From Alicyclobacillus sp. (GTDB lineage Bacteria > Bacillota > Bacilli > Alicyclobacillales > Alicyclobacillaceae): 64,000 bases of DNA. Below are positions 31,288 through 32,380 of this stretch, in pieces (the first letter of the stretch is position 1; every line of letters starts with the position of its first letter). Location of the stretch: NCBI GenBank assembly GCA_023511725.1, contig JAIMAY010000002.1, forward strand, positions 1-64,000, in the 5' to 3' direction. The notes under the pieces are model-generated. The model made no database searches and was not told the DNA's origin. It saw only the letters and a list, made by a program, of their open reading frames with translations. A program made the translations under genes and the position numbers.

Positions 31288-32343
31288 TCACGGCATCACG
31301 TGCAGACGTACGGGGCCTGGGCCCACCTCACCAATGACGGTCGCCTCCCGCTCACCCGCATCCCGCAGCGCCCGCACCAATACCTCCGCCTCCACCGCCG
31401 GCACCGCCAACAAGAGTCCACCGGAGGTGATGCTGTCGGCCAGCAGGGTGCGGACCGTTTCCGCCACCGCGTCGTCGTACGTCGTCCATGGCGCCACGTG
31501 CTGCGTGTTGCGCCTCGTACCGCCTGGGATGGCGCCCAGCTCCACCATCCGCCGAGCGGCGGCGAGCATGGGCACGGCATGCGCCTCTATCGTCAGCGAA
31601 ACCCCGGAACCGCGCGCCATCTCCAGCGCGTGCCCCAGCAGCCCAAAACCTGTGACGTCCGTGCAGGCGTGCACCGTGAAGCGCCTGGCGGTTTCCGCCG
31701 CGGTGCGGTTCAGATGCGCCATCACGCGCGTCACCTCGCTGATCTCGTCCTCCGTCGCCAGCCCACGCTTGATGCCGGTTGTGATCACCCCGGCGCCTAG
31801 CGGCTTCGTGAGGATCAGCGCGTCCCCCGGCTGCGCCCCGGTGTTGCGCCACACCTCGTCAGGATGCGCGACACCCGTGATCGCCAGCCCGTACTTGGGA
31901 TCCCCGTCATCGATGGAATGCCCCCCGACGAGAACGGCGCCCGCCTCGCGCACCTTGTCCGCGCCACCCTCGAGGATGGCGGCGAGCCACGCCTTGGGGA
32001 GCTTGCTGATGGGGAACCCCACGATGTTCAGGGCCGTGACCGGCGTGGCCCCCATCGCGTAGATGTCGCTCAGCGCATTGGCCGCGGCAATCTGCCCAAA
32101 GGCGTAGGGGTCATCCACCACCGGTGTGAAGTAGTCCACGGTTTGGACGATGGCAAGGTCGTCCCGCAGCACGTACACACCCGCATCATCCATCGTCTCC
32201 ATGCTCACGCGCAACTGCGGGTGCGAGAAGGTGAGATGAACCGACGCCAACACATCCGATAGGTCTCCCGGACCTATCTTGCACCCTCACCCCGCCTTAT
32301 CGGTCCACTGCGTCAAACGCGGCAGCGTCTCCAACCATATCAC
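31288..32343 (-). CDS. selD: Selenophosphate synthetase, itself a selenoprotein (in-frame UGA)
   Basis: Makes selenophosphate from selenide and ATP for selenocysteine and selenouridine synthesis. The open frame that gene callers see begins at GTG 32253, but homology runs on upstream through a TGA at 32287-32289: ...RLTQWTDKAG-U-GCKIGPGDL, where other SelD proteins have GCGCK or GUGCK. TGA thus falls exactly at the active-site Cys/Sec (codon 19), and the lysine needed for catalysis follows at codon 22. A SECIS-like hairpin lies just downstream. GTG at 32343 is the start: AGGAGG stands 5 bases upstream. The 351-residue product then matches the family. Later motifs DDAGVY, DYFTPVVDDPYAFG, GGHSIDDGDPKYGLA and DVTGFGLLGH are intact. 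Confidence 0.93.
32258..32278 (-). promoter_or_regulatory. SECIS-like hairpin for selD selenocysteine insertion
   Basis: Transcript reads a perfect 8-bp stem GAUAGGUC / GACCUAUC around the loop CGGGA, which contains the G-rich apical loop expected of bacterial SECIS elements. Sixteen bases separate the UGA from the loop, within the known spacing range. It lies in coding sequence, as bacterial SECIS must. Confidence 0.85.
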
Positions 32344-32380
32344 CCCCGCCTCCTGAGCGACCCGCTCATGTTCCCTTTCC

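Follow-up and report, generated by a model that had tools for sequence, protein, structure and literature searches.

A selenophosphate synthetase (SelD) that itself contains selenocysteine (Sec) is a well-known, textbook selenoprotein, and the Aquifex aeolicus enzyme (PDB 2yye/2zod) carries Sec in nature. Since Sec-SelD ranks among the top two bacterial selenoproteins in frequency (PMC1794560, PMC9312934), the selD gene described here belongs to a known kind. It lies on the minus strand of the window (i.e., the whole stretch of 64,000 nucleotides of Alicyclobacillus sp. contig JAIMAY010000002.1 that was analyzed), with an MFS transporter and a divergent two-component system as its neighbors, and comprises the following features:

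31288..32343, minus strand: selD, selenophosphate synthetase (selenide, water dikinase), 351 aa, with Sec as residue 19, a GTG start and a TGA stop
32287..32289, minus strand: in-frame TGA, codon 19 (the U of the UGCK motif), predicted to be read as selenocysteine
32349..32354, minus strand: Shine-Dalgarno sequence AGGAGG, 5 nt upstream of GTG 32343
32258..32278, minus strand: SECIS hairpin with an 8-bp stem and loop CGGGA, starting 8 nt 3′ of the UGA

Reading through the in-frame TGA, from GTG 32343 to 31288, yields a product of 351 residues (VIWLETLPRLTQWTDKAGUGCKIGPGDLSDVL...), in which the context of codon 19 on the minus strand is RLTQWTDKAG-U-GCKIGPGDL. The conventional selD ORF (31288..32253) encodes only 321 aa, so that, as had been claimed for the start at 32253, 30 of the 351 residues are lost, the nucleophile among them. 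An ordinary stop at this TGA would leave precisely such a shortened SelD from GTG 32253, devoid of the nucleophile and the glycine-rich N-terminus (i.e., a pseudogene or a protein of altered function), and conventional gene calling indeed yields exactly this ORF. Moreover, TGA is the main stop of the window, ending 65 of the 84 long frames. The strong Shine-Dalgarno sequence in front of GTG 32343 argues against such a stop. Use of TGA as an amino acid codon throughout the genome was ruled out, TGA being the commonest stop in the window.

The read-through protein scored 406 bits against the SelD model TIGR00476 (cut-off of 125), spanning profile positions 1–308 of 311, and its best solved relative was PDB 3u0o (Selenide, water dikinase; E=2e-83). 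In the alignment with 3u0o, U19-G-C21-K22 falls on CGCK, in keeping with the UxxK form, and the segments DDAgVY, ALSDIYAMG, and TDVTGFGLLGHA are conserved between both proteins; we take these segments to carry the catalytic Lys and the metal-binding Asp residues. The residues preceding the TGA (R-L-T-Q-x-T-x-K-A/S-G) agree with those of independent relatives and likewise speak against an ordinary stop. Identity to the nearest named relative reaches only 66%. Because of the 406 bits obtained for the read-through protein and the match of the pre-TGA residues to independent relatives, the combination of TGA and homology at selD is far beyond chance. The original prediction had placed the UGA at the Cys/Sec position of SelD and proposed an alignment to SelD proteins; TGA 32289-32287 was indeed found to align with the Cys or TGA codon of homologues, and the protein matches both TIGR00476 and 3u0o, motif included.

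The remainder of the same assembly (2.66 Mb in 76 contigs, 97.7% complete) was searched for the Sec machinery, which yielded the following genes:

C46:83281-83373: selC (tRNA-Sec, UCA anticodon), 64.6 bits vs. a cut-off of 47
C50:22320-24206: selB, full length, 362 bits vs. a cut-off of 242
C46:135819-137201: selA, full length, 566 bits vs. a cut-off of 268

The expectation that selA, selB, and selC would be present elsewhere was thus borne out, all three exceeding their curated cut-offs in this very assembly. The absence of selC or selB had been named as the observation that would speak against the selD reading; the genome search found both, and the reading is not refuted. The Sec genes are dispersed over three contigs (selA and selC on C46, selB on C50, and selD on C63), with about 52 kb between selA and selC and none of them clustered with selD.

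The comparison of selD covered 59 genomes from the same order, in which a match of >200 bits was regarded as a strong SelD match. All 39 strong matches contained exactly one TGA, situated at the same codon as in the selD of the window in those of the 39 places that were read. SelB was present in 27 of the 30 genomes with SelD vs. 1 of the 29 without it, i.e., SelD and SelB together in 27 genomes, SelD only in three (G033, G049, and G054), SelB only in one (G045), and neither in 28 (Fisher p=2e-12, a value in which independence is overstated by shared ancestry). Three of these exceptions (G045, G049, and G054) are assemblies that are 65–88% complete. Among named genomes, TGA occupies this codon in Alicyclobacillus, Ferroacidibacillus, Tumebacillus, Kroppenstedtia, Melghirimyces, Marinithermofilum, Gracilibacillus, and Desulfosporosinus and relatives; TGC or TGT occupies it in Paenibacillus, Cohnella, Lentibacillus, Heyndrickxia, and most Bacillaceae. 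In a SelD tree the Sec and Cys forms separate with one change, the direction of which is not given by this tree with its long branches and arbitrary root; the simplest reading would be that the Paenibacillaceae/Bacillaceae group lost Sec.

Since a TGA is only one base removed from TGC or TGT, and Paenibacillaceae homologues carry Cys at this codon, a sequencing error or a strain-specific mutation of a Cys codon might produce the same picture. However, the TGA recurs at the same codon in dozens of independent assemblies from the same order and from Desulfosporosinus, and an error or mutation would leave no reason for the co-occurrence with selA, selB, and selC, so that we regard this explanation as having a negligible chance of being correct.

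The comparison also brought up SelD genes of other types. Six of these (L129–L134, from G057, G039, G033, G055, G038, and G056, respectively) are 39–48% identical to the SelD of the window and contain one TGA each, with the motif UACK or UAAK in place of UGCK and a similar GGTCC/GACC-like stretch following the motif. Several genomes of the order carry two TGA-containing SelD genes. In G033 (5.1 Mb in 2 contigs, 100% complete), the UACK-type SelD (L131) has its in-frame TGA, and the genome search revealed no selB over threshold and no selC; this gene is possibly a stranded selenoprotein gene, or its machinery possibly escaped detection. G024 contains a tRNA-Sec gene (L155, 62 bits, UCA anticodon), and neither SelD nor SelB was detectable in a search of that genome, so that its selC looks like a relic after loss of the trait.

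Downstream of the UGA, the hairpin GATAGGTC-CGGGA-GACCTATC (32278-32258) has a folding energy of -10 to -11.5 kcal/mol and a UGA-to-loop spacing of 16 nt. Bacterial SECIS (bSECIS) elements are constrained to a loop of 3–9 nt, an upper stem of 4–16 bp, a UGA-to-loop spacing of 16–37 nt, a G within the first two loop positions, and a minimum free energy (MFE) of at most -7.5 (PMC13188914). With its loop of 5 nt, stem of 8 bp, G at loop position 2, spacing of 16 nt, and MFE below -7.5, the selD hairpin falls within all of these bounds. The 8-bp hairpin with loop CGGGA that had been reported 8 bases past the UGA was found as described, in both its sequence and its spacing. An 8-bp stem of the same class is found after 4.8% of all window TGAs, and shuffling the codons of the peptide synonymously gave such a hairpin in 1.4% of cases; taken alone, the hairpin is weakly non-random and not decisive. 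When the hairpin region was scanned against Rfam, no family matched.

For a comparison at the RNA level, pairs were numbered from the T of the TGA. Of 41 distinct Sec-type sequences, 38 had Watson-Crick bases at every one of pairs 16-28, 17-27, 18-26, and 19-25, vs. 4 of 51 Cys-type sequences, figures that are given as a contrast and not as a probability because the sequences share ancestry and relatedness inflates significance. The peptide encoded at the SECIS core is nearly the same in both types. Position 27, where the Asp codon ends, was C in 32 of 32 Sec-type sequences (first count) and mostly T in the Cys-type. Selection on a SECIS leaves just this kind of pattern, and the core is kept at the RNA level. 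The apical C20-G24 pair of most relatives is replaced by C-A in the hairpin of the window, which has four additional pairs at the base of the stem compared to its relatives. The lost apical pair and the missing Rfam match both weigh against the selenoprotein reading.

With the TGA and the hairpin both kept across the order, and a complete Sec machinery in the genome, an ordinary stop at codon 19 becomes very improbable, even though the TGA-bearing SelD of G033, with neither selB nor selC detectable, indicates that stranded TGA-SelD genes may exist. Computation thus established the reading frame, the homology, the conservation of both TGA and SECIS, and the presence of selA, selB, and selC, and the earlier observation on selD was confirmed as correct in all its details. 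We conclude that selD of this Alicyclobacillaceae-like bacterium almost certainly encodes a selenophosphate synthetase with Sec, its UGA being recoded via SelB and the hairpin and its product feeding SelA. From established SelD and SelB biology we infer both the decoding of the UGA and the catalytic role of U19. SelB carrying Sec-tRNA(Sec) would bind the hairpin immediately 3′ of UGA 32289-32287, which would then be recoded as selenocysteine by the hairpin-bound SelB. U19, followed by G-C21-K22, would act as the N-terminal nucleophile handling selenide, while the kinase body would use ATP to form selenophosphate. The latter would in turn supply SelA, providing Sec-tRNA for translation of SelD itself and of any other selenoproteins.

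As an addition to this reading, SelD might be the sole selenoprotein of the genome, with no selenouridine or Se-cofactor trait and with selA, selB, selC, and selD forming a closed loop kept solely for Sec-SelD (or for some further use of selenophosphate). In support of such a loop, no SelU match over threshold was found in the genome, YqeB was not detected, none of the nine AhpC/TSA (peroxiredoxin) matches contained an in-frame TGA, and no AhpD/CMD domain was found. SelU over the curated cut-off was found in no genome of the same family, and is present in the sister family. Both FdhA paralogues (C52:49232-50506 and C15:10798-12069, with open frames of 1011 and 1024 aa) lack an in-frame stop and have an apparent Cys in the motif NCSRYCQ[AT]P, which we take to include the Sec position. 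These formate-dehydrogenase-like proteins thus apparently use Cys for Sec although the genome decodes Sec.

Moreover, about 0.5 Mb of the genome was scanned with a SECIS model combined with a redox motif, hits being ranked by GC3; SelD came second of 137 and was the only candidate to hold up, no second selenoprotein being put forward. Pfam was run on five other top-ranking hits, in a GerAC gene, at a LepA/HemN gene junction, in a peroxiredoxin, in an aldehyde dehydrogenase, and in a serine dehydratase region. None of the five resembled a selenoprotein: the known domains fell on one side of the TGA, or the TGA marked the meeting of two separate genes, so that it was apparently a regular stop ahead of a gene or separating two genes. 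A codon-usage scan for further read-through ORFs did not discriminate, with the known SelD itself near zero. The GerAC spore-germination gene (L179:1678-2685, at C52 near 42.7–43.7 kb) lacks the first 43 profile positions and has an in-frame TGA just upstream of the matched part; it is possibly a truncated gene, and it supports a spore-forming host.

Against a sole selenoprotein stand the coverage of the scan (about one fifth of the genome, with only a few families searched genome-wide), the 97.7% completeness of the assembly, and the existence of >110 prokaryotic selenoprotein families (PMC13188914), and we consider a closed loop unlikely. According to PMC1794560, Sec-SelD is universal among Sec organisms that lack FdhA, and most of these have the selenouridine trait; unless other selenoproteins exist, this genome would belong to the minority without that trait, and a closed SelD loop, if true, would be an unusual case against this pattern.

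Correction of selD restores a catalytic residue that a standard gene call would lose, and reveals an Alicyclobacillus-group spore-former equipped with the complete selenocysteine system. In a full-text search of a set of open-access papers for selenocysteine and Alicyclobacillus, only five papers matched, and neither word occurred in any of their titles or abstracts. Because the customary clients and co-users of such a system (Sec-FdhA, selenouridine synthase, and Se-cofactor proteins) were not found in this genome, the question arises which selenocysteine-containing proteins the lineage produces.

Finally, the locus can be set beside known systems. As in the bacterial Sec-decoding trait (SelA, SelB, and tRNA-Sec), all components are present in the genome, but here the genes are dispersed and no Sec-FdhA, SelU, or YqeB was found. 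With Cys-SelD (PDB 3u0o; Paenibacillus/Cohnella/Bacillaceae) the SelD of the window shares its family and the motif (CGCK in the Cys form), whereas Cys-SelD has a Cys codon for the TGA and does not maintain the RNA hairpin. Compared to its Sec-SelD relatives (COG0709, UxxK; Aquifex aeolicus, Alicyclobacillus, and Desulfosporosinus), the SECIS stem of the window lacks the usual apical C-G pair and is longer at its base; family, Sec position, adjoining downstream SECIS, and co-occurrence with selA, selB, and selC are common to both.
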